A DNA stretch of 23,657 bases from a virus. The translations under genes were made by a program, and so were the position numbers. Of this stretch, positions 284 to 16,339 are shown piece after piece (the first letter of the stretch is position 1; each line of letters starts with the position of its first letter). The notes beneath the pieces were generated by a model that did not search any database, was not told the origin of the DNA, and was given only the letters and a program-made list of their open reading frames with translations. The DNA lies in IMG/VR virus record IMGVR_UViG_3300045284_000415, positions 1-23,657 of that record. One strand, given 5' to 3'.

Positions 284-591
284 CGCTTCTTGACGTAGGC
301 CTTCATTGGCGCTTCTGGCTCCAGTGCCTGCGGCTTGCGCCGACCACCGAGCACGGGTTGACCCGGGAAGAGGGGCTTCGGGTTGTAGTCGCGCCGGTAG
401 CCGGGATGCACGGGGTGGGCGTACGAACCGGCTGGACGGCCAGCCGCCATCTCCTGGTCAGCACCCACGGTCACGCCGCGCTGGGGGCCGACGATGGAGG
501 TCACCCGACCCTCACCGATGCTGCTGCGCCCGCCGAAGCGTTCAGCACCGACCCGTCGACTGGGCCATGCGGCGCGGTTGGTCACTGCCAT
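280..591 (-). CDS. Unknown Gly/Pro/Arg-rich protein (103 aa)
   Basis: Low-complexity protein rich in Gly, Pro and Arg, ending in a basic tail (YVKKR). No catalytic motif is visible. The start ATG overlaps the upstream stop (TGATG) and a good Shine-Dalgarno GGAGG lies just upstream inside the previous gene. The tight operon fit supports expression although the sequence itself is unfamiliar. It may be a disordered virion or scaffold-like component, but nothing in the sequence proves this. Confidence 0.6.
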   Translation of the reverse strand: MAVTNRAAWPSRRVGAERFGGRSSIGEGRVTSIVGPQRGVTVGADQEMAAGRPAGSYAHPVHPGYRRDYNPKPLFPGQPVLGGRRKPQALEPEAPMKAYVKKR

Positions 592-848
592 CAGCGCCTC
601 CGATACGGGCCGGTCGGGCCGACCCCGAACATGAGCGGCTTGTCGAGGCCGGTGGAGGTCATGCTGCGATGGGGACGCCCCTTCCGGTCACTGGAGAGGC
701 CCGGGGGCATGATCGACGTGCTCTTGTCCGACCGGGGGATGTAGCCCTCTACGTCCTCATGGCCAGTGCCAAGCCACCGGTTGGCGTCCACACGACGGCC
801 GGGGTGCCCCTCGTTGCGGGGCTTGATGACCCCATGTCCACTCGCCAT
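591..848 (-). CDS. Unknown protein with N-terminal KPRxEGHPGR motif (85 aa)
   Basis: Start taken at the ATG at 848, which overlaps the upstream stop (TGATG) and follows AAGGAG; a GTG one codon earlier is also possible. The N-terminus (SGHGVIKPRNEGHPGRRV) closely matches that of the next upstream protein (SGPGTNKPRSEGHPGRQV), after which the two diverge. The shared segment suggests a duplicated binding module at the N-termini of adjacent gene products. The rest is polar with PHRSMTSTGLDKP-type segments and no recognised domain. Confidence 0.6.
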   Translation of the reverse strand: MASGHGVIKPRNEGHPGRRVDANRWLGTGHEDVEGYIPRSDKSTSIMPPGLSSDRKGRPHRSMTSTGLDKPLMFGVGPTGPYRRR

Positions 849-1174
849 CACTCCTCCTTCTCGTCAGCGTGGGCTGGCCGGAAAGCGTGCTGCCACGCAG
901 CGTGATCGTGGTCATCGCTGTCAGCACCCCGCTCAACCTTCCACGGTCGACCGCCCGCCAGCCCCTCACCCTTGGCGAGGCCGATGCCGGTCTGGCCGAG
1001 GCGCTTGCCACTGGCGCTGATCCCGGTGAAGTAGCGCTTGCCCATCGAGTCGACCTGGAAGGCCCCATGTCCGGGGACGTGGATGGTGTCACCGACACCG
1101 AAGGCGGCAGCGCTGACCTGGCGACCAGGGTGGCCCTCACTACGTGGCTTGTTGGTGCCAGGTCCGCTGCTCAC
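848..1174 (-). CDS. Unknown protein with KPRxEGHPGR motif and beta-rich core (108 aa)
   Basis: GTG start overlapping the upstream TGA (GTGA). After the shared SGxGxxKPRxEGHPGR N-terminus (residues 2-19) comes a probable beta-rich segment around GVGDTIHVPGHGAFQVD, which looks like a small barrel or SH3-type strand pattern, then a Gly-rich stretch. The tail is acidic and His-rich (ADSDDHDHAAW, DEKEE). No known family is recognised. Its pairing with the neighbouring 85-aa protein suggests that the two bind a common partner through the same N-terminal motif. Confidence 0.6.
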   Translation of the reverse strand: MSSGPGTNKPRSEGHPGRQVSAAAFGVGDTIHVPGHGAFQVDSMGKRYFTGISASGKRLGQTGIGLAKGEGLAGGRPWKVERGADSDDHDHAAWQHAFRPAHADEKEE

Positions 1175-1471: not shown

Positions 1472-1714
1472 ATGCCGAAGACGACGAAGATCACTCTGTC
1501 TCCAGAGGATGCTGCTGTCGTCCTCGACATCGTTACGAAGCTCAGTGGCCCGGTATCGCCCGACGCCGCGGCGGTTGCGCTGCGCCAGGCGCGGTACCTG
1601 GTGCCCAAGCTGACGGAGGCTTTCGACGCAGCAGGGATCGCCGCTGACGATGTCGAGCGTCCCGAGATCCCGTTCATGGTGCCGGGGTCGAAGCACAAGC
1701 CAGCTACCCATTGA
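1472..1714 (+). CDS. Small unknown protein on the opposite strand (80 aa)
   Basis: A plus-strand gene inside a leftward operon. Residues 1-55 look helical (PEDAAVVLDIVTKLSGPVSP, RQARYLVPKLTEAFDAAG), and the C-terminus is Pro/Lys-rich. High GC at third codon positions supports coding. It has its own leaderless-type promoter and overlaps the 3' end of the convergent gene at 1704 by 11 bp. No DNA-binding motif is obvious. A separately controlled accessory or regulatory product is likely. Confidence 0.65.
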   Translation: MPKTTKITLSPEDAAVVLDIVTKLSGPVSPDAAAVALRQARYLVPKLTEAFDAAGIAADDVERPEIPFMVPGSKHKPATH

Positions 1715-2714
1715 ACTGACCACTCATGTGGAGGATCGGCTCGCCGGTCATCGGGTGGAAGTACGGCTGACCACGACGGCCTGGCCCCTGCTTGCGGGTG
1801 CGGTCCTGCTGTTCGATCCCGTACTTGACGTGGGTCCACGCCACCGCCTGGGCTGCTGACGGGTCCATGTCCATCGATCGGGCGACAGCGCCGACGATGT
1901 GCGACACGTCCTCGTAGCGGGTCGACTTGCCGGAAGGGAGCGCTGCCTTGGAGAGGCCACGACCGAACTCCCACGGCCGCGACCGGTTGGTCAGTGTGTC
2001 ATAGGCCCGACCGTCGAGAGTGACGTAGTTGCTGGACGGATCAGCGATGTTGTGCATGAAGCTGTTCGTCTTGGGCGAGGTACGCCGGTCGAGCACGTCG
2101 TCGGGGTGCTCACCCTGCACCAGTCGGCCGATCTTCTGCAGTTCGGGCAGCTTGGCGTTCGACAGGGCGGTGCTGGAGAGCCGTGTCATGGCGTCGTTGT
2201 AGTCAAGGCGGTGGGCCGAACGACGCGTCGGCTGGCCCTTCACGATGGCGTCCCAGTGCTTGCCGCCCAGGGACTTCACTGCCGTCAGCGCCTGGACGTT
2301 GCGGGAGTCCCAGTCGGTGTTGGGACTCACCGAGGCGAGGATGCCCGACGCCGACAGGTTGCGATCGCTGGAGGCACCGAGGAAGCCACGGGTGGACAGG
2401 GAGCGCTGGACCTCCTCGTTGGCCTTGGGGTACCAGAGCTTGCCCTCTTCGACGTACTGCGGTGGCGAGGACTCGATCGCATGGGCGAAGTTGGCAGTGG
2501 CCGCAACGATGTTCTTCGGGTCCTTGAAGTCGATGGTCCCCGGGAACTTGAGCACGATCTTGGGGTTGCCCGCCTTGGTCAGCTTCGGCTCACCCGTCGC
2601 CTTGCTGATCGGCTGGTGACGGACGGCCTCACTACCCATCACCGGGTAGTTGGCCTCCTCGGCCTCTGTGTGGAAGTTGGTACCCCTCGGAGTGCCTCGC
2701 TGGGTGACGCCCAT
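1704..2714 (-). CDS. DUF7178-like phage protein (336 aa)
   Basis: Contains the pattern SVSPNTDWDSRNVQAL near residue 130, then SPKTNSFMHNIADP and VTLDGRAYD around 215-240, and AAQAVAWTHVKYG near 290. From memory this order (SPNxDWxxN, PKTxxFxxNIxDP, VT[IL]DxRA, QAxxW) matches a family common in actinobacterial phages, generally annotated as unknown (DUF7178). The second half has a helix-rich, glycosylase-like look, but activity cannot be claimed. ATG overlaps the upstream stop (TGATG) with AGGAAGGG just before. The C-terminus ends MSGQFNG, recalling the GQF element at the N-termini of the proteins at 10453-12931. Confidence 0.7.
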   Translation of the reverse strand: MGVTQRGTPRGTNFHTEAEEANYPVMGSEAVRHQPISKATGEPKLTKAGNPKIVLKFPGTIDFKDPKNIVAATANFAHAIESSPPQYVEEGKLWYPKANEEVQRSLSTRGFLGASSDRNLSASGILASVSPNTDWDSRNVQALTAVKSLGGKHWDAIVKGQPTRRSAHRLDYNDAMTRLSSTALSNAKLPELQKIGRLVQGEHPDDVLDRRTSPKTNSFMHNIADPSSNYVTLDGRAYDTLTNRSRPWEFGRGLSKAALPSGKSTRYEDVSHIVGAVARSMDMDPSAAQAVAWTHVKYGIEQQDRTRKQGPGRRGQPYFHPMTGEPILHMSGQFNG

Positions 2715-3560: not shown

Positions 3561-5150
3561 TCAACGGCCCCGGTAGAAGGGGCTATCTACCTGCTCCACG
3601 ATGGGCACTGTCTCGATCATGCTGCAGGCGCAGGCCAGCGCGGCGCTGTCGACGTAGTCGTCGCGCGCCTCGCGCTCCTCGGGAGCCTGGATGAGCAGGT
3701 ACTGCCCGCGCATCACCTTCTCGGCGTCGACCATCTGCTGGCGGAACCTGCGCCACACGCGCGTGCGCCGCGCCTTGGAGTGGCCGGGGTACACGAACAT
3801 CTGGCGCTGGATCAGCTGGATCATGTGCTTCCAGCGCTCCGACTGGGTCTTGGAGTCGCTGGAGAACGGGATCACCTCGCAGCGGGATCCCATGAGTCGA
3901 GCCATGCGGTCGGCCACCGCTGATCCCATTCCTTGTGCATCGACGCCCATGAAGGCGACGTTGTACGGGTCGAGGAACTCCATGATCTCGAAGTACTGCT
4001 CCTCCCAGGCGGTGTTGTTGATCTCCAGCCAGTTGAGGATGCGGTGCTCGCGGTATCCGGCCGGGTCGGGGAAGTCCCAGTCGACCCAGGTGACGGTGAC
4101 GACGGTGGAGTCCTTGACTCGGGCGGGGTCGATCCCAACCACACAGGGCGAGCGGTGCCATCCTCGGACCAGCTGCATGGATGGGTCTGCCAGGTAGTCA
4201 AGTTCGTCCTCCGTGACGAGCATGCCTCGTTCGAGCATCCACTTCAACGCGTAAGACATTTGGAACTCGTCCGAGTCCTCGCCTAGCCGAAGCTTCTCCT
4301 TCTCGATGAACTTCTTGTAGGAGGGGTTGTACTTGCAGACAGTCCGGTAGTCATACTCATAGTGGTTGGCCCGAGAACGCTTGGACACCTGGCGGCGCTT
4401 GTTGACGTTGATGGCCTTGTAGAAGTCGCCCTTGGAGTAGCCGGGGGTGCCGATCTTCACGATGGTCCCGGCGTAGAAGGCGAGCATCGGGTGGATCGAC
4501 TTCCGCACTACGAGGTCATCGGCATCCTGGGCCTCGTCAAGGATGATGATGTGATACGACGCCCCTTCGATCTTCGCTCGGGGGTTGGCGGTTTGACGGC
4601 GACAGAACGAGCCGCTGGAGAGCCGTAGCACCTTGGACTTGCCGTCGACACGCTCATCGATCTCGGGGTCGAGCATGATGAGTTCCGCATGCTCGGAGGT
4701 GAGCCGGGAGACGATGCGGGAGAAGACCAGGTCGGCCTGGTCATCAACCGGGGCGAAGATGCCGACCCACACGCCCCGCTTGAACTTCTCCAGCACCGGG
4801 TAGGTCCGGGCCAGCTTGGGGAACAGCACCATGCAGCCCGCCAGTGTGGTGGCCACTACCTCGCTCTTGCCCGACTGGCGGGCCATCAGGCCAGTGACTT
4901 CCTCGGCGTCAGCGAGGATCAGGGACTCGATAATGCGATATGCCAGGGTCCTCTGGTAGGGGAACAACTCGAAGCCCGCTAGCTCCTCGCAGAAGACGAT
5001 GGTGCGCTGCACCAGCTGGTCGAGGAACCCGGCCATCTCTGGATCGAGTGGCTCAACGTACTCCTCGTCCTCGTCGGGGGAGTCGTCCACCTCCTCTTCG
5101 AGAAGGTCCTCTGGATCCGGGCCGTAGCCAAGGTCCTCGATCAAGCTCAC
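3561..5150 (-). CDS. terL: Terminase large subunit
   Basis: ATP-driven DNA-packaging motor and headful/site nuclease acting at the procapsid portal. Walker A is ARQSGKS (residues 90-96), Walker B IIILDEAQD (201-209, D205/E206), and KIGTPG (232-237) fits the ATPase coupling motif. The RNase H-like nuclease carries acidic residues in VGIDPA (D341), GVDAQG (D404) and DDYVDSAAL (D498/D501). The 529-aa length is normal for the family. An acidic N-terminal extension (residues 11-36) precedes the ATPase. Start is GTG with no Shine-Dalgarno; a TG-G-TATGAC element inside a 17-bp palindrome sits eight bases upstream, implying a leaderless mRNA. No portal gene follows directly, which is unusual; a small-subunit candidate is only tentative (5267-5509). 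Confidence 0.96.
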   Translation of the reverse strand: MSLIEDLGYGPDPEDLLEEEVDDSPDEDEEYVEPLDPEMAGFLDQLVQRTIVFCEELAGFELFPYQRTLAYRIIESLILADAEEVTGLMARQSGKSEVVATTLAGCMVLFPKLARTYPVLEKFKRGVWVGIFAPVDDQADLVFSRIVSRLTSEHAELIMLDPEIDERVDGKSKVLRLSSGSFCRRQTANPRAKIEGASYHIIILDEAQDADDLVVRKSIHPMLAFYAGTIVKIGTPGYSKGDFYKAINVNKRRQVSKRSRANHYEYDYRTVCKYNPSYKKFIEKEKLRLGEDSDEFQMSYALKWMLERGMLVTEDELDYLADPSMQLVRGWHRSPCVVGIDPARVKDSTVVTVTWVDWDFPDPAGYREHRILNWLEINNTAWEEQYFEIMEFLDPYNVAFMGVDAQGMGSAVADRMARLMGSRCEVIPFSSDSKTQSERWKHMIQLIQRQMFVYPGHSKARRTRVWRRFRQQMVDAEKVMRGQYLLIQAPEEREARDDYVDSAALACACSMIETVPIVEQVDSPFYRGR

Positions 5151-5266: not shown

Positions 5267-5509
5267 CTACTCGGACTTCGCCCGCCTGTCCGAGTAATAC
5301 TTCGACGCCTTCTTCAAGCAGGCCTCGCCCTGGCACCCCTGGTTGCGCCGGTACAGCGTGGCGTCGGGGCAGAGGGTCGAGTTGCGCTCGGGGTCGAGGC
5401 CACACACGCCAACCTCGGACACCAGGATGGGACGGCCCTTGCGCCCAGAGCGGTGCTTCTCCAACGCCTCCACCCGCTTCTCCAGCTGGGTGAAGGCGGC
5501 GTCAGTCAC
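5267..5509 (-). CDS. Small four-cysteine protein, possible terminase partner (80 aa)
   Basis: Start taken at GTG 5509 because it overlaps the upstream TGA (GTGA); an open frame continues further but with unlikely composition. Residues 5-19 form a short coiled-coil helix (AFTQLEKRVEALEKH). Four cysteines, C36, C47, C59 and C64 (pattern CX10CX11CX4C, with TLYRRNQGCQGEAC), probably bind zinc. I recall similar small Cys proteins in actinobacterial phages, function unknown. Being immediately upstream of the terminase large subunit and having a coiled coil, it could be a DNA-recognition (small-subunit-like) protein; this is inference. Confidence 0.65.
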   Translation of the reverse strand: MTDAAFTQLEKRVEALEKHRSGRKGRPILVSEVGVCGLDPERNSTLCPDATLYRRNQGCQGEACLKKASKYYSDRRAKSE

Positions 5510-5808
5510 CACAGCGTGGGCTGGGTAGGGGCGTCTGCCTCCACCGGCAGCGGGGGCGTGACGGTGATCCGGTACGAGACGCCATCGGGGGCCAAACCTG
5601 ACAGGGTGCCATCGGCACGCATCTCGCGGCCCTCCCACACGACATCGTTGCGGCTCTCGTAGTACTCGCGGTAGCTCTCGAACATCTCGCAGACGTGCAG
5701 TTCGGCTTCGGGGTCACTGAAGGGCACTTCGATGGAGCGGATGACTTCTTCACCAAAGAGCGGTCCAGACCGCGCCTCAATGACGTACTCGGGCTGGGTG
5801 TCGGTCAT
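5506..5808 (-). CDS. Unknown acidic protein (100 aa)
   Basis: Begins MTDTQPEYVIEARSGP. It has an alternating strand pattern at the start and end and a central helix (AELHVCEMFESYREYYESRND). No membrane segment and one cysteine. It is the first gene of a short leftward unit with the 80-aa Cys protein and ends at the 5180 hairpin. Its start has no Shine-Dalgarno but TG-A-TATGTT lies six bases upstream, so the mRNA is probably leaderless. Function unknown. Confidence 0.65.
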   Translation of the reverse strand: MTDTQPEYVIEARSGPLFGEEVIRSIEVPFSDPEAELHVCEMFESYREYYESRNDVVWEGREMRADGTLSGLAPDGVSYRITVTPPLPVEADAPTQPTLW

Positions 5809-10452: not shown

Positions 10453-11229
10453 GTGGCCGCGAACGAGAAGCTGGGCGGGCAGTTCATGCATCATGAGCGC
10501 CCTGGCTACGGCCACGACGTTGAGCAGTACGACGTAGTCAGGCCGATGGTCGGCCCGCAGTGGAACCGCGAAACCCAGCAGGTCGAGCGCACCGTGCGGG
10601 ACCGCTCGCTCCTGACGATGACGGTGGAGCACGAACCACCCCACGTTGCATATGCCGGTATCCGGGAAACGAAGCGACGGGACCGGGCCGACTGGGAGGA
10701 CGACGACGAGTACAAGACCTCGCCCCCCGAAGCCGCCGCCGCCAAGGCCGACTTCGAGGCACCCCATCCCGACAACCCGAACCAGCCGAAGCTGTTCGGG
10801 ATGCACACGACCCCTGGTACGTCGAAGGTCGACTACATGGTGGGGACCCGCGAGGCCCGCTCCTATGCGATGACGCTGATCGGCATCGCTCAGAACCGGT
10901 CCATCCAGAACTACGGGCGCAGCCTGATGCCGTCGACCGACCTGTCGCCCCACTCCTACAAGCTCGCCTCCCACCTGTCCGAGAAGGCCGGTACGAAGGC
11001 CCCGCCCGCTGGGGGACCCTCCAACGGGATGGGCTTCAACGACGAACCCGGCATCTACAACCGCCAGCGCTCCAGCACAGAGATCGATGCCAGCGAGGTG
11101 CGCCGTGGGCGCAACCTGGTCCGCCGCGTGGTCAAGGGCGGCAACCCTGATCCCCGGGGCGTCACCAGCCCCGAGCAGTTCAAGGCCAAGAAGCCGAAGA
11201 AGGACCCCAACCAAGGGACGCTGTTCTGA
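10453..11229 (+). CDS. QGTLF-family protein A (258 aa)
   Basis: First gene of a three-gene rightward operon. N-terminus contains LGGQFMHH. The middle holds QPKLFGM (near residue 113) and then the block shared with the next gene: MVGTREAR, IGIAQNRSIQNYGRSLMPST, DLSPHSYKL, and GRNLVRRVVKGGNPDPRGV. The C-terminus is basic (KAKKPKKDPN) and ends exactly QGTLF. Both QPKLF and QGTLF fit Qxx[L]F, the general shape of bacterial sliding-clamp binding peptides; a tag for another partner is equally possible. No enzymatic motif seen. GTG start; its TGA overlaps the next ATG. Confidence 0.75.
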   Translation: MAANEKLGGQFMHHERPGYGHDVEQYDVVRPMVGPQWNRETQQVERTVRDRSLLTMTVEHEPPHVAYAGIRETKRRDRADWEDDDEYKTSPPEAAAAKADFEAPHPDNPNQPKLFGMHTTPGTSKVDYMVGTREARSYAMTLIGIAQNRSIQNYGRSLMPSTDLSPHSYKLASHLSEKAGTKAPPAGGPSNGMGFNDEPGIYNRQRSSTEIDASEVRRGRNLVRRVVKGGNPDPRGVTSPEQFKAKKPKKDPNQGTLF

Positions 11230-12059
11230 TGACCGCTCACGACTCCCTCAACGGTGGTCAGTTCCACCACACCCCCCAGGGGAAGGGGGGCGACTGGTAC
11301 GAGTACACCAAGCCTGACCCGATCGGCAAGCGCCACGTCCACCTGACGCTGGCGACCAACCAGATGCCCGACCGCACGGTGTACGCCACGCCCAGCGATA
11401 ACGCCACGATCTCGTCATCGGAGTGGGAGCACCTCACAGGCACTCGTCATCGGACACAGGACCGGGTCCCCGGACGCCAGGGGGAGGACGTGGACTACCA
11501 CGGGGCCACCAGCAGCGGTGGAGACCACCTCCTCGCTGCCAAGAGGGACCTGGAGACTCCTGGCCCAGGAGGCCAGGGCAAGCTGTTCGGCATGTCCACG
11601 AAGCCAGGCCGCTCCACGGTGTCGGTGCTGATGGGCACGCGCGAGGGTCGGGTGCATGCCCCGACAGCGCTGGGGATCGCACAGATGCAGAACATCCAGG
11701 ACTTCGGCCGCACCCTGCTGCCCTCTGGTGACCTGTCGCCCCACTCGGCCAAGCTGGCCAAGAATCTCCACCAACGTGGGGCCACCAGCGAGGCACCGGC
11801 ACCGGCCAGCAACCACATGGACTTCGGCATCGCCCTGAGCTACTCGGGCAAGAACAACGACGTGGTCCCCCAGCAGGCGGTGCGCGCGGGGCGCAACCTC
11901 ACGCGCCGCGTAGCTCGGGGCGGCAACGCCGACCCCCGAGGGGTGAGCGACGCTGATGGGCCGTCCAAGGAGCCGATCCCCAACTACAACCGCAAGAGTC
12001 CGCCGCGCCGCGGCACTGCCACCCGCAAGCCCGACCCCCGCCAGGGCACGCTGTTCTGA
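11229..12059 (+). CDS. QGTLF-family protein B (276 aa)
   Basis: Paralogue of the preceding gene product. It shares LNGGQFHH at the N-terminus, QGKLFGM near residue 116, LMGTREGR, LGIAQMQNIQDFGRTLLPSG, DLSPHSAKL, GRNLTRRVARGGNADPRGV, and a basic tail ending DPRQGTLF. The first third is beta-rich and different from protein A. Third codon positions of the shared C-terminus differ between copies, so the conservation is in the protein, not just the DNA. ATG overlaps the previous stop (TGATG). Origin by tandem duplication is likely; function unknown. Confidence 0.75.
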   Translation: MTAHDSLNGGQFHHTPQGKGGDWYEYTKPDPIGKRHVHLTLATNQMPDRTVYATPSDNATISSSEWEHLTGTRHRTQDRVPGRQGEDVDYHGATSSGGDHLLAAKRDLETPGPGGQGKLFGMSTKPGRSTVSVLMGTREGRVHAPTALGIAQMQNIQDFGRTLLPSGDLSPHSAKLAKNLHQRGATSEAPAPASNHMDFGIALSYSGKNNDVVPQQAVRAGRNLTRRVARGGNADPRGVSDADGPSKEPIPNYNRKSPPRRGTATRKPDPRQGTLF

Positions 12060-12931
12060 TGGCGAAGAAGAAGGACAATCCCCAGGGCCAGTTCGCCGGG
12101 ATGCCTGCACCCGCCCACCTGTCAGGGGCAGGGATGAGTCCGCACCGCCAGGTGCTGAAGGAGATCGGGGAGACGGCCCCGATGATGATCAGGGCACCAC
12201 GCACTGCCCTGTCGGGCATCGCAGCGTCACGCACGCTCCTGAGCCAGCACGACACCGGCACGTCGGGGGCACTACTGGATTCGGACGAGAGGATCGGCTG
12301 GGAGGACCAGGAGTTCCCCGACCGGGCGAACCACCCGGTCTACGGCTACCTGTCGCACGGCGAGTTCCGGGACAACCTCCACGGGACCGACCTCAAGGAG
12401 TACGCCAACACCAGCGAAGGGCTGACCGACGAGAACCATCCGGTCGACGCAGTGCATGAGTACGGCAACACGGCGTTCGAGTTGCGGCCCCACATGCGCG
12501 AGCACATCACCTTCTCCCACGGTGACTCACTGGGCCGAGACACCTCCGAGGGCGTGACCGCACGACCTGGTGGCGCTCCTCGCTCTCGCCACTTCAGCTT
12601 CGGCCCCGACCAGGCGTACACCGAGATGCAGGTGCATCCCCCCGACAAGCCTGGGGTGGACGTGAACAAGGACGTGACTCGGGCGATCCACTACCGCGAT
12701 GACCGCACCCCGGCAGAGGGACCCCTCCCGTTGGCTCGGGAGAACCGGGCGTCGATGCTGCTGGCCCAGGCCGGGGTGCCCCATGAGGTGCGCTCGATCG
12801 GCCAGACCGAGCAGCACCCCCTGTCGCCCGATCTCGGCCCCGTGGTCAAGAACCTGGAGGTCAGCGTCCTACGGCGTTGGAAGCCCGGTCAAGACTGGGA
12901 GCCGCGCAAGCCCAAGAGGGGCAACGTCTAG
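12059..12931 (+). CDS. Phage ADP-ribosyltransferase-like protein (290 aa)
   Basis: An N-terminal GQF element (residues 10-12) and a linker precede a domain from about residue 45. RTLLSQHDTGTSG (58-70), HPVYGYL (92-98), EYGN (134-137), LRPHMREHITFSHGDSL (142-158) and YTEMQVH (187-193) follow the order seen in phage ART-like domains (RPVYGYL, YG, LRxxVxxRxTFTxGDS, YxExQxHG), often fused to MuF-type head proteins or labelled DUF3626-like. E189 of ExQxH would be the catalytic glutamate, transferring ADP-ribose from NAD+. Here the domain stands alone. It may be a virion-carried host-modifying enzyme. It lacks the QGTLF end of its operon partners. Confident on resemblance, not on activity. Confidence 0.75.
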   Translation: MAKKKDNPQGQFAGMPAPAHLSGAGMSPHRQVLKEIGETAPMMIRAPRTALSGIAASRTLLSQHDTGTSGALLDSDERIGWEDQEFPDRANHPVYGYLSHGEFRDNLHGTDLKEYANTSEGLTDENHPVDAVHEYGNTAFELRPHMREHITFSHGDSLGRDTSEGVTARPGGAPRSRHFSFGPDQAYTEMQVHPPDKPGVDVNKDVTRAIHYRDDRTPAEGPLPLARENRASMLLAQAGVPHEVRSIGQTEQHPLSPDLGPVVKNLEVSVLRRWKPGQDWEPRKPKRGNV

Positions 12932-12940
12932 ACCACTACG

Positions 12941-12955
12941 GCATATGCCGATATG
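12941..12955. repeat. ATAT-box motif exactly between convergent stops
   Basis: GCATATGCCGATATG fills the gap between the TAG at 12929-12931 and the TGA at 12956-12958. It is the best match of a repeated element (also 18101, 3380, 6292, 6560, 18678). No terminator hairpin lies here, so this motif may itself serve as a boundary or protein site. Confidence 0.4.
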
Positions 12956-14728
12956 TCACGCAGTCGGTGGTAGGAACGGCGGGAGCGTGATGGTGGTGGT
13001 CGGCCCTGGCGGGAACGGCCCGTTGGGGTTGGCGCACGCTGACGACTCGGGCGGGTAGGTCACCAGCACAGGCCCAGCGGTGGGGTTGACGGTGTAGGTG
13101 AGGAAGATGCCCTGGCGCAGGAAGGCGTCGGAAGGATCCTGAATCCAGAACCCATCGTCGTTGAGGATCCAGCCGGGAACATCAGCGACCGAACCGTCTG
13201 CGTTGACCTCGGTGCCGGGGTAGAGGATGTCCACTGTCGCTCCTGGCTCGTATACCAGAGGCTGTACGGATACCACTTCGCCATTTGCTGCCGCCGTCAT
13301 GGTGAGCGTTCCCGTGCGCCCTGCGAGCGACGGGAACTGGTTCTGGAAGGTGATGCGGATCGTCGGCACCTCGCGCACGCAGACGGTGCCCGCAGCACCG
13401 AACGTGAACGTGTCAGGCAGGGTGCTGGTCGTGGTCGTGCTGCTCGTCGTCGTGGTGGACGTGCTCGTCGTGGGAGCAATCGTGGTGGTGGACGGGGAAA
13501 CGGTCGAAGTAGTGGTCGAGGAACTCTGCGGTGACGTTGTCGGCGGTGAAGTGGTAGTGCTTGATGTCGTCGTCTCCTCCGGTGGGCAGTCCTCGGGCAG
13601 CGTCACTACGGCCGTCGCCGTCTCCCCCTCCAGGTTGTAGGTCAGGGTCAACGGGGTCGTCAGGCTGGGCGGGTACGGGATGGTGATCGTCGCGTTGGCG
13701 ACGAACAGGAGGGGGTTGCCGGGGTAGTCGGTGCCGTCCGAGAAGCTCAGGAGGCCGAAGTGCCCAGTGAGGTCGGGCCGGTTGCCGAAGGTGATCGAGA
13801 TCTCGGGGAGGTTGTCGTCACCGCAGAAGGCGAAGTCGTCAATACCCAGGAGACTCGGCCGAGGCAGGGTCGTTGTAGTGGTCGACGGCGCGGTCGATGA
13901 GGTGGTCGAACTCGTCGTCGTAGACCCCGGGACGGTCGAGGTGGTCGTCGGGGCCGGGATAGTGGTCGTCGAGGTGGTCGTCGTCACCCCAGGCTGGGTG
14001 GTCGTGGTGGTCGAGGTAGAAGTTGAGGACGTAGACGTGCTCGTAGGCACGACGGTGGAGGTCGTCGTTGTGGGCGCGGTGGTCGAACTTGTCGTGGTGG
14101 ACGACGATGTCGTGGTGCTGCTGGTGCTGCTGGACGATGTCGTGGTTGTACCACCGTCCGGGAGGCACTCAGACACGTCAGGCTCAGGCTGGCCGGTGTC
14201 GAAGGCGATGACCCGGCTGCGGCCCTGCTGGTCAGCGAAGAACGAGCCGATCACGCCGTCCCAGTCGGGGATCGAGTTGACGCTGACCGAGATCGGGTTC
14301 TGACCCGTCTGCAGCCGCTCGTCGTCACCCGGGGTCCCCACGAACTTGCACACGAAGACCTTCTTGGACTCTTCAGTCGTCGTCGTCAGGGCGATAGTTG
14401 TCGAGGTCGAAGAGGTCGTACTCGTAGAAGGTGCCGTCGTAGATGTCGAGGTAGATGTCGGAGTAGAGGACGTAGAAGTGGGTGCGACCGTCGTAGTGGT
14501 GCTTGTGGTGGGGACTGTCTGCGGATTGGTCACCACCACCGTGGTCGACGTGGCCGGGTGAGTCGTCGTCGTGTACGCCGGATGTGTCGTTGAGGTAGCG
14601 GGATGGGTGGTCGTCGTGTAGTAGCCGCCCCCCTGAGGGAAGCTCTCGTTCTTCTGCCAGGAGGCCGCTACCGGGGCACCGATCAGGATCCCCGCCGCTA
14701 TCACCGCTGATGCCACCCGTGCCTTCAT
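12956..14728 (-). CDS. Secreted Thr/Ser-rich mucin-like protein with three globular domains (590 aa)
   Basis: Signal peptide at residues 1-22 (MKARVASAVIAAGILIGAPV, cut after AASW region). Then alternating Thr/Ser/Pro linkers (37-118, 193-288, 385-438) and globular parts. Domain 1 (about 122-190) contains FVCKFVGTPGDDERLQTGQ and NPISVSVNSI with paired Cys (C127, C188). Domains 2 (290-383) and 3 (438-567) are related to each other: LPEISITFGN / VPTIRITFQN, two cysteines each. The linkers are likely glycosylated and exposed at the cell surface, as in actinobacterial envelope proteins. A promoter TATGAT eight bases before the ATG implies a leaderless mRNA. It is probably a host-derived moron, or an adhesion or superinfection factor. 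Confidence 0.8.
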   Translation of the reverse strand: MKARVASAVIAAGILIGAPVAASWQKNESFPQGGGYYTTTTHPATSTTHPAYTTTTHPATSTTVVVTNPQTVPTTSTTTTVAPTSTSSTPTSTSTSTTAPSTSTTSSTSTTIALTTTTEESKKVFVCKFVGTPGDDERLQTGQNPISVSVNSIPDWDGVIGSFFADQQGRSRVIAFDTGQPEPDVSECLPDGGTTTTSSSSTSSTTTSSSTTTSSTTAPTTTTSTVVPTSTSTSSTSTSTTTTTQPGVTTTTSTTTIPAPTTTSTVPGSTTTSSTTSSTAPSTTTTTLPRPSLLGIDDFAFCGDDNLPEISITFGNRPDLTGHFGLLSFSDGTDYPGNPLLFVANATITIPYPPSLTTPLTLTYNLEGETATAVVTLPEDCPPEETTTSSTTTSPPTTSPQSSSTTTSTVSPSTTTIAPTTSTSTTTTSSTTTTSTLPDTFTFGAAGTVCVREVPTIRITFQNQFPSLAGRTGTLTMTAAANGEVVSVQPLVYEPGATVDILYPGTEVNADGSVADVPGWILNDDGFWIQDPSDAFLRQGIFLTYTVNPTAGPVLVTYPPESSACANPNGPFPPGPTTTITLPPFLPPTA

Positions 14729-14736
14729 GGGCCGGG

Positions 14737-14742
14737 ATCATA
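14737..14742 (-). promoter_or_regulatory. -10 element for the mucin-like gene
   Basis: TATGAT on the minus strand followed by eight bases and the ATG at 14728; no Shine-Dalgarno. Nearly consensus -10, and it lies just five bases downstream of the stop of the winged-helix gene. Confidence 0.5.
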
Positions 14743-14746
14743 GTGG

Positions 14747-14992
14747 TCAGGGGGCAGCCGAGAGTGTGTATCCCAGGCGCTCCGTCATCGCTATCCCAGC
14801 GCTGGTCAAACGGTAGGACTCATCGCTGGGGTCGAAGTAGACCAGGTCCCGCCGAACCAGGGCGTTGAGGACATACAGGGTGGCTCCGTGGCTCACCCAC
14901 ACCCACTCGCCGTCCCGCGCGTAGTACCGGTGACGGCCCAGCATCTTGAGAGCGTGGCGCTGGTTGTCACCCAAGGGTCGCTGATTGTTCAT
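14747..14992 (-). CDS. Winged-helix DNA-binding protein candidate (81 aa)
   Basis: Layout fits a small winged helix-turn-helix: helix 1 DNQRHALKMLGRH (9-21), strand EWVWVS (29-34), helices ATLYVLNALVRRDLV (37-51), a wing with YFDPSDESYRLTSAG (52-66), and a last helix AMTERLG. YRLTxAG is typical of MarR/PadR-like repressors and phage regulators. No enzyme or ligand pocket visible. Two GTCGCTAAG sites flank the divergent region upstream (15013 plus strand, 15145 minus strand), making this gene the obvious candidate for a regulator that binds them and represses itself and the neighbouring 15173 gene. Inferred. Confidence 0.65.
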   Translation of the reverse strand: MNNQRPLGDNQRHALKMLGRHRYYARDGEWVWVSHGATLYVLNALVRRDLVYFDPSDESYRLTSAGIAMTERLGYTLSAAP

Positions 14993-15012
14993 GGTCCCGC
15001 CGTTCCGCCGAT

Positions 15013-15021
15013 GTCGCTAAG
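15013..15021 (+). promoter_or_regulatory. GTCGCTAAG site upstream of the winged-helix gene
   Basis: GTCGCTAAGAGA about 20 bases upstream of the ATG at 14992. One of four copies within 1.5 kb (also 15145, 16089, 16483). Candidate operator. Confidence 0.4.
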
Positions 15022-15144
15022 AGACTTTGCGGCGAGGGGTGGACCGAGCGCCAACCCGAGGCACCCCCCGCCTAGTTAGGCCGCAAGCCCTTTCCAAGAT
15101 AGGCCGGGCAGCAGCGAGTAACACAGTAGCATCGCGCTGATCCC

Positions 15145-15153
15145 CTTAGCGAC
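15145..15153 (-). promoter_or_regulatory. GTCGCTAAG site in the promoter of the 15173 gene
   Basis: Reverse-strand copy lying between -35 and -10 positions of the rightward promoter at 15161, where a bound protein would block polymerase. Confidence 0.4.
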
Positions 15154-15160
15154 CTGGGAC

Positions 15161-15172
15161 TACTCTGGCCTG
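15161..15172 (+). promoter_or_regulatory. -10 element for a leaderless mRNA
   Basis: TACTCT (15161-15166), then GGCCTG and GTG 15173. The same TACTCTGG occurs at 8565. No Shine-Dalgarno. Confidence 0.5.
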
Positions 15173-15883
15173 GTGGAAGAGAAGGGGTCCCAGTTCGGCG
15201 GCTACTCCATGGTCCGCAAGCGCGACTTCGCTGACTCCACCCACTTCGAGCTTCACCACAAGGGCATGGAAGTCGGGTCGATGAGCGTGATCCACTACAA
15301 GCAGCACACCGGGGACATCATCTACCCCAACGACCCCGACAAGCGCGAGGGCCGCTGGGACATCGCCACCCGTGAGCCTGACGAGGCCTCCTGGAAGGGC
15401 CACGACGAGACCTGGGCCACCAACACCGCCATCGCAGAGGGTCACCGGCACCCCTCCATCTCCGAGGTCCAGATCCCCCTGTTCAAGCAGACCGTGCGAC
15501 GCCAGAATAATGACATATTCCTGATGTCCATGGCCCGCAAGCACCGGGCGATGGCGGGCACCATGCTGGGCGTCGCCAACAACGACGCCCTCGCTCAGAC
15601 CGGGATCGGCCTCTCACCCTCGTCCAACCTCTCCCAGCACTCCCATCGCTTAGTGACCAAGCTCGGCGCGCGCGGCGTTCTGAACAAGGCCCAGGTCCCG
15701 GACCAGCCGATGAACGACATCACCTGGGAGGAACCGAGGCCAGCCCGTGGAGCTTCCGCCTTCGACGCCGCCGACTACCACCCCATCCCCCACGCCGAGA
15801 TGGAAGCGGGCCGTCAGACCGTCCGCAACATGATCCGCCCCAAGCGACACCGCCCCGACCCCAACCAAGGAACCCTCTTCTGA
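15173..15883 (+). CDS. QGTLF-family protein C (236 aa)
   Basis: Diverged third member of the family at 10453 and 11229. The N-terminus has KGSQFGG (compare GGQF), followed by a beta-rich region (FELHHKGMEVGSMSVIHYKQ). The common core is LGVANNDALAQTGIGLSPSS, NLSQHSHRL, then EAGRQTVRNMIRPKR, and the C-terminus HRPDPNQGTLF is nearly identical to protein A. The codons for QGTLF (CAA GGA ACC CTC TTC) differ from those of protein A, showing protein-level selection. Start GTG with a leaderless-type -10. Its TGA overlaps the next ATG. Function unknown. Confidence 0.75.
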   Translation: MEEKGSQFGGYSMVRKRDFADSTHFELHHKGMEVGSMSVIHYKQHTGDIIYPNDPDKREGRWDIATREPDEASWKGHDETWATNTAIAEGHRHPSISEVQIPLFKQTVRRQNNDIFLMSMARKHRAMAGTMLGVANNDALAQTGIGLSPSSNLSQHSHRLVTKLGARGVLNKAQVPDQPMNDITWEEPRPARGASAFDAADYHPIPHAEMEAGRQTVRNMIRPKRHRPDPNQGTLF

Positions 15884-16083
15884 TGGCCCGAGGACAGAAC
15901 ACCGCCCACCACCCGGCGCGCCAGGTCCACCGCGAGCGCTTCACGCCGCCCCCCAAGGGCAAAGAGGTCGAACTGTGGACCGACCCCCACACCTGGGACG
16001 AAGACCGCCTGGACGAGTGGGCAGCCAGCGAGCAGGTCACCCAGGCCGCAGCATGGCTCCGTGACCACAACGGCCCGTTCTAG
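15883..16083 (+). CDS. Small basic/acidic unknown protein (66 aa)
   Basis: Start ATG overlaps the stop of the QGTLF protein C gene (TGATG). Basic N-terminus (ARGQNTAHHPARQVHRERFT), then an acidic helical part (EDRLDEWAASEQVTQAAAWL). It ends HNGPF. Coupled translation suggests that it works with protein C, much as the ART-like gene follows A and B. No family recognised. Confidence 0.65.
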   Translation: MARGQNTAHHPARQVHRERFTPPPKGKEVELWTDPHTWDEDRLDEWAASEQVTQAAAWLRDHNGPF

Positions 16084-16144: not shown

Positions 16145-16339
16145 CTACTTGCTCGCCTTCTTCGGCGGCTCCTCCGTGGCGTCCTCGTTCACGTACGTCG
16201 TCGGCTTGTCCGGGTCGTACCCCGGCCTGTCCGGGAGGTTGTTCGGATTGTCCGGGAGGTTGTTCGGATTGTCCTGTCGAGGATCGGCTTCCCTGGGGCT
16301 GGCAGCTTCGCCGCCGCCCCCTGCGTTTCCTGTGCCCAT
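16145..16339 (-). CDS. Disordered Pro/Asn-rich protein with tandem repeat (64 aa)
   Basis: Start ATG 16339 follows GGAG by eight bases. Fully low-complexity: Gly-rich start, then DNPNNLPDNPNNLPD, a two-copy heptad from a 21-bp tandem DNA repeat (16229-16270), then Pro/Asp- and Lys-rich end (EEPPKKASK). No hydrophobic core, so it is likely intrinsically disordered. It could be a linker or decoy peptide; function cannot be guessed. An upstream in-frame ATG (16417) would extend it, but lies within the preceding gene. Confidence 0.5.
   Translation of the reverse strand: MGTGNAGGGGEAASPREADPRQDNPNNLPDNPNNLPDRPGYDPDKPTTYVNEDATEEPPKKASK
16229..16270. repeat. Two-copy 21-bp tandem repeat
   Basis: GTCCGGGAGGTTGTTCGGAT followed by T, twice, in frame with the 16145-16339 gene, giving NPNNLPD repeats. 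Copy number may vary by slippage. Confidence 0.7.

Follow-up and report, generated by a model that had tools for sequence, protein, structure and literature searches.

Candidate sliding-clamp docking peptides at the ends of three GNAT-like phage paralogues and of unrelated proteins in related phages

Natural motifs that bind the bacterial sliding clamp take a pentameric (Q-phi-x-[LM]-[FL]) or a hexameric form (Q-phi-x-[LM]-x-[FL]) and occur in C-terminal tails, disordered N-termini, and loops (PMC11139829). In a Pol IV peptide, swapping the LGL end for LF had no effect (PMC11139829), and actinobacterial NucS, that of S. coelicolor included, binds the clamp protein DnaN via a C-terminal [EK][LY][TR]LF (PMC8228993). 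Phages are also described to carry polyvalent, head-delivered effectors, in a paper whose text makes no mention of clamp or replisome (PMC5512222). Here, we describe a 23,657-base fragment of an uncultured virus (IMG/VR record IMGVR_UViG_3300045284_000415; this whole stretch is termed the window), in which three genes, p1, p2, and p3, encode GNAT-like proteins that end in QGTLF. We favor, with some confidence, the explanation that these tails dock p1 to p3 on the sliding clamp (DnaN, the beta subunit) of an actinobacterial host.

Three paralogues with a common tail

A first-pass annotation, made from the window alone, had reported three open reading frames (ORFs) at 10453, 11229, and 15173 with an early [GS]QF and a terminal QGTLF, and both features were confirmed. 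The relevant elements are as follows:

10453..11229, plus strand: p1, GNAT-like paralogue of 258 amino acids, end DPNQGTLF
10453..10485, plus strand: N-terminal leader of p1, MAANEKLGGQF
10783..10803, plus strand: internal QPKLFGM of p1 (residue 111), within an insertion ahead of the central GNAT strand
11212..11226, plus strand: C-terminal QGTLF of p1
11229..12059, plus strand: p2, GNAT-like paralogue of 276 amino acids, end DPRQGTLF; also modelled
11229..11264, plus strand: N-terminal leader of p2, MTAHDSLNGGQF
11574..11594, plus strand: internal QGKLFGM of p2 (residue 116), at the end of the insertion, which is mostly of low model confidence
12042..12056, plus strand: C-terminal QGTLF of p2
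15173..15883, plus strand: p3, GNAT-like paralogue of 236 amino acids, end DPNQGTLF
15173..15196, plus strand: N-terminus of p3, MEEKGSQF, a shorter form
15470..15484, plus strand: internal QIPLF of p3 (residue 100), at the same alignment position as in p1 and p2
15866..15880, plus strand: C-terminal QGTLF of p3

The [GS]QF (GQF or SQF) stands at about residues 9, 10, and 6 of p1, p2, and p3, respectively. As the annotation had stated, the codons for QGTLF differ among all three copies (i.e., CAAGGGACGCTGTTC, CAGGGCACGCTGTTC, and CAAGGAACCCTCTTC), so a signal kept at the DNA level is ruled out. Its picture of divergent proteins sharing their ends was accurate for the ends; beyond these, p1 and p2 share 43% of their residues, and p3 can be aligned with them over its full length at 24-26% identity, with common core residues around L.PS..LS.HS..L in addition to the conserved tail. 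Judged by these alignments, p1 to p3 are full-length paralogues, not unrelated tagged proteins. An internal QxKLFGM had been noted in two proteins; all three have an internal QxxLF. The insertion that holds the QxKLFGM of p1 and p2 is absent from short homologues, and its QxKLF would probably be a clamp-docking peptide as well. Each of the three stop codons overlaps the ATG of the next ORF (TGATG), consistent with the coupled partner gene proposed for each copy, with the correction that the partner of p1 is p2 itself. All three genes lie 5-11 kilobases (kb) from the large terminase gene, on the opposite strand.

Scans of Pfam and PHROG assigned no family to p1 to p3, and when 50,697 phage records were searched by tblastn, neither p2 nor a short homologue had a match. 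The profile search across phages that the annotation had suggested was run in IMG/VR with p1 to p3, and a single contig, L013, was its sole find. An AlphaFold2 model of p2 (built from eight sequences) reached a mean predicted local distance difference test score (pLDDT) of 60 and had no significant match in the PDB; its low-confidence residues (54-104, 115-117, and ~241-276) fit disorder and, equally, a shallow alignment. In p1 to p3, the motif occupies the free C-terminus. The model of a short homologue (L011:18439-18930) had a pLDDT of 73.7. GNATs made up almost all of its top 50 PDB matches, with a best E value of 4.6e-3, probability 1.00 for the leading matches, and TM-scores of ~0.4; many of its viral matches carry an acetyltransferase annotation. 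These models provide moderate evidence that the short homologue of p1 to p3 has a GNAT (acetyltransferase) fold. Catalysis by p1 to p3 is doubtful, because the acetyl-CoA loop [QR]-x-x-G-x-[GA] lacks its usual glycines in the alignment (R-S-Y-A-M-T in p1, R-V-H-A-P-T in p2, and R-A-M-A-G-T in p3).

Since p1 to p3 are paralogous, the common tail could, from the window alone, be plain descent, i.e., mere shared ancestry without any binding function, and relatives were needed as a test.

Recurrence of the tail and its fit to clamp-binding motifs

Related phages were located by using the window's large terminase as the anchor:

3561..5150, minus strand: large terminase, the anchor for finding relatives

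This search yielded 53 IMG/VR loci. The terminase also matched Streptomyces phage isolates (LuckySocke, BRock, and others) at 48-49% identity, and a relative that is 50% identical lies in a contig of 759 kb from Actinomadura atramentaria, a cultured actinobacterium; because of these relatives, the host of the window phage is likely an actinobacterium. The contigs examined whole or almost whole were five long ones (98-118 kb) and several of shorter length; genes were called by a purpose-made codon-usage model, so that gene counts are approximate. C-terminal motif statistics refer to 713 non-redundant genes from 54 related phage contigs.

Nine of these 713 genes, belonging to five BLAST clusters, end in QxxLF. 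A C-terminal ..LF was preceded by Q in these nine cases, by P once (an orthologue of a tailed family, ending HPTLF), and never by another residue. When the last 40 residues were shuffled, the mean was 0.065 and the maximum 1 (2000 trials), so the observed number is about 140-fold higher. QxxLF occurs 53 times in the gene set, nine of them at zero distance from the C-terminus. Most tails are preceded by a basic linker (mean net charge of +2.45 versus -0.28; none of 20000 random samples was as high).

The tailed proteins, most of which have no Pfam or PHROG assignment or only weak ones, belong to five families. GNAT-like members are found in the window, in L013, and in G015 (QQTLL); a protein of contig G011 that ends in DPNQGTLF is ART-like by eye, with no Pfam match; DUF7178-like proteins score under the Pfam cut-off; and there are phrog_3170-like proteins as well as a small ORF family ending QPTL[FW]. 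Scanning IMG/VR for DPxQGTLF directly before the stop gave only three near-identical ART-like genes, and the corresponding scan for DPNQLxLF gave five matches. These include the tails DPNQLTLF (L061, 5446-5472, minus strand) and DPNQLNLF (L062, 4453-4479, minus strand) of two short proteins from other phages or prophages, which by eye resemble a helix-turn-helix activator and an Ogr-like zinc finger, respectively. Near the N-terminus, QxxLF occurs in a ParB-like protein (G013, 361-906, weak phrog_723 match) and in a phrog_3170-like protein of the same contig (MSAPRQGKLF). Separately, a gene in a contig binned as Armatimonadota (L127, 12895-13911), which adjoins a terminase 61% identical, combines a zincin HELGH motif with an N-terminal GQQGTLF.

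The suggestion that several proteins are directed to one receptor in modular fashion was thus strengthened, as unrelated families in relatives bear the same class of terminal peptide. Shared ancestry without function does draw on the paralogy of p1 to p3 and on the tail being missing from some homologues. This recurrence, the synonymous differences between copies, and the clamp-like variation among orthologous tails described below speak against it, and we consider it highly unlikely.

Orthologous tails vary in a specific manner: QMALF, QLSLGI, QMDFGF, QMSFGF, and QGTLF in the DUF7178-like family; QLSLF, QLELF, and QLSFDL in the phrog_3170-like family; and QGTLF, QFKLF, and QQTLL in the GNAT-like family. 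By this comparison, orthologues conserve a class of tail, not one string. Gln at position 1, [LM] at position 4, and [FL] at position 5 are present in the QGTLF of p1 to p3 and in the QxxLF of relatives, and other tails of the group (QLSLF, QMALF, QLSLGI, and more) have Leu or Met at position 2. Of the receptors first proposed (clamp, replisome part, or head), the host sliding clamp fits best as a predicted partner, because orthologues swap QLSLF-type for QLSLGI- or QLSFDL-type ends, which are the published pentameric and hexameric forms. The main argument for the clamp is this fit of the whole tail set to the published motif description. The near-complete relatives encode DNA polymerase A, and in all five neither DnaN (PF00712 and PF02768, with positive controls) nor Pol III alpha was detected. 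A phage-encoded clamp is accordingly rejected as the receptor for these relatives, which leaves host DnaN as the only clamp known to be available.

Several observations weigh against clamp docking. The aliphatic residue expected at position 2 is Gly in QGTLF, a substitution that lowers the affinity of the E. coli consensus peptide, and Trp at position 5 (compare QPTLW of the small ORF) weakens E. coli peptide binding (PMC11139829). The C-terminal motif is absent from the GNAT homologues of G005, L014, and L122, and from a homologue pair in G019 that keeps the core; the isolated relative LuckySocke does not have the motif, and the host of the window phage is predicted from terminase relatives. 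In the two G019 homologues, the internal motif is QTTLF (residue 110) or QGTLF (residue 114), and the short homologues, encoded by three consecutive genes located between portal and scaffold, have neither peptide. Homologues that keep the core without a QGTLF end, which the first-pass annotation had named as evidence against its proposal, were therefore found in part. Because these short homologues and the G019 pair retain the core, the C-terminal motif, as far as such comparisons go, is an exchangeable add-on, not essential to the fold. The QGTLF of the window would be a suboptimal member of the clamp-motif class, and p1 to p3 would work like canonical members; they are not filed as such because position 2 is Gly.

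A different phage-encoded protein that favors QxxLF, such as a replication or recombination factor, could be bound instead. QG.LF, which is not the favored clamp form, is frequent in this phage group (21 of 76 QxxLF occurrences), as such a receptor would allow. No phage protein emerged as the receptor, however, the variation of orthologous tails tracks the clamp consensus, and the LuckySocke relative is without the motif; we give this alternative little credence.

Genomic position raises a further alternative. The five long contigs have zero to two QxxLF-ended genes each, and all but one of these tailed genes map to the variable segment that separates terminase from portal, the exception being a GNAT-like gene of G015, which lies upstream of the terminase, much like the window arrangement. 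The C-terminal peptide could thus be a head-loading tag that binds scaffold, portal, or capsid, so that its bearers travel in the virion and enter the host together with the DNA. This would agree with the motif-bearing families between terminase and portal, the GNAT-like homologues between portal and scaffold, a phrog_3170-like relative annotated as a structural protein in Rhodococcus phage E3, and the solo GNATs beside mycobacteriophage late genes that were proposed to be capsid-deployed (PMC5512222). However, the homologues inside the head operon are the tailless ones, E3 gp205 has no QxxLF, most long contigs have one or two tailed proteins or none, and the tails occur in QLSLF as well as QLSFDL forms, an alternation also seen in clamp motifs. 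A virion proteomics report for E3 was not found in the literature searched. We regard a head-loading function of the C-terminal peptide as unlikely.

N-terminal leaders and neighboring genes

The GQF of p1 and p2, initially taken as an N-terminal element of its own, is present as described and belongs to a longer leader, M-A-A-x-[DEN]-[HKN]-L-x-x-Q-F, which recurs on unrelated proteins of relatives. A broader pattern, M-[ASTK]-[AGS]-x-[DENHQ]-[HNKQRS]-[LIVF]-x(1-4)-Q, is found at the start of 15 distinct proteins (21 of 1558 genes, versus 0-3 for altered patterns), a count that is descriptive since the pattern was composed after seeing examples. Leader-bearing proteins include GNAT-like and ParB-like ones and some without assigned fold. 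The leader may be a signal separate from the C-terminal tail, and p1 to p3, or the leader, may have a role in head loading. A tentative and rather improbable extension combines both signals: the leader would serve head entry, the C-terminal or loop peptide would engage the host clamp after injection, and new domains would gain both by recombination in the cargo block.

Other features of the window are listed below:

12059..12931, plus strand: p4, an orphan of 290 amino acids coupled to p2, with NPQGQFAGM near its start
15883..16083, plus strand: protein of 66 amino acids coupled to p3, start MARGQNTAHHPARQVHRERF, with an element common to small terminase-portal-block proteins of relatives
5506..5808, minus strand: ORF of 100 amino acids ending PTQPTLW (QPTLF in L004 and L005), a further QxxL[FW] C-terminus
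1704..2714, minus strand: DUF7178 protein, end SGQFNG; elsewhere in the phage group, members of the class bear QLSLF-type ends

The gene at 12059 had been labelled ART-like. This label was dropped, as p4 has no match in Pfam or PHROG and no homologue among the contigs searched. The protein after p3 bears HHPARQVHRERF, an element present in 16 genes versus 0-1 for altered patterns (likewise descriptive, as the pattern was composed after seeing examples). Small proteins with [NH]HPxRQVHRERF (or GHPGR[RQ]V), recurrent in the terminase-portal block of relatives, are encoded in the window at 15883-16083 (plus strand), 591-848 (minus strand), and 848-1174 (minus strand). Between p4 and p3, the minus strand at 12956-14728 encodes a Thr/Ser-rich, mucin-like protein of 590 amino acids with many TTTS-type repeats and a likely signal peptide. 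A small minus-strand ORF contains DNPNNLP repeats, encoded by a 21-base unit that is present in about two perfect copies (16228-16274).

Proposed role and comparison with known systems

Under clamp docking, each protein would consist of a GNAT-fold domain and a peptide on a basic, probably flexible tail, with a second docking peptide within the insertion of the window paralogues; relatives would place the same peptide class on other effector-type proteins encoded in the variable block beside the head genes. Through the tail peptide, the protein would reach the host fork or DNA that bears the host clamp, such that a changing set of proteins is held at the host replication fork. The likeliest effect would be disturbance of host replication, or modification of replisome or DNA-bound proteins. 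We infer DnaN binding, the actinobacterial host, and the effect on it from the comparisons above. If true, a five-residue tag would be a general route by which this phage group sends unrelated proteins to the host replication fork; a terminal QxxLF or QxxLxF near head genes would be a simple rule for spotting uncharacterized host-takeover proteins; and concrete predictions of DnaN binding would follow for individual DUF7178, phrog_3170, and GNAT-like proteins.

Like known beta-clamp-binding proteins (QL[SD]LF; Pol IV, Pol V, Hda; and NucS with [EK][LY][TR]LF), these phage proteins have Q or a similar residue-x-x-L-F at a free C-terminus or in a loop, and pentameric and hexameric versions at one place in orthologues. 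The known binders are polymerases and repair enzymes, whereas here the motif is on phage effector-type proteins, the window form has Gly at position 2, and binding is predicted.

The polyvalent or head-delivered effectors (Iyer et al. 2017, PMC5512222) have a repertoire that overlaps with that of this phage group, in which GNAT-like, ART-like, ParB-like, and zincin-type proteins are encoded near head genes. In relatives, the genes are placed beside late structural genes; in the window, p1 to p3 are 5-11 kb from the terminase on the other strand. Polyvalent proteins are long multidomain chains with two or more effector domains, whereas here most are single-domain proteins with exchangeable end peptides, and each window protein has one recognizable domain. 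By eye, Rhodococcus phage E3 (L066, 43803-47638) appears to fuse phrog_3170-like and DUF7178-like parts in gp205 and GNAT-like and ART-like parts in gp206, a repertoire that forms separate genes in the window's relatives.

The clamp-loading inhibitor gp168 of phage Twort is directed against the sliding clamp of its host (PMC11139829), as would be the case here. Its binding site is the DNA channel instead of the peptide pocket, and it is a single dedicated inhibitor, in contrast to a peptide common to many proteins here. The SocB toxin of Caulobacter binds the clamp via an ordinary clamp-binding motif and blocks replication elongation (PMC9690074). SocB is a host toxin-antitoxin protein, outside any phage set.

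The T4 capsid targeting sequence is one short N-terminal leader common to unrelated head cargo. The M-A-A-x-[DEN]-[HKN]-L-x-x-Q-F leader is likewise carried by unrelated proteins; its sequence differs from that of T4, and its role as a signal is putative.

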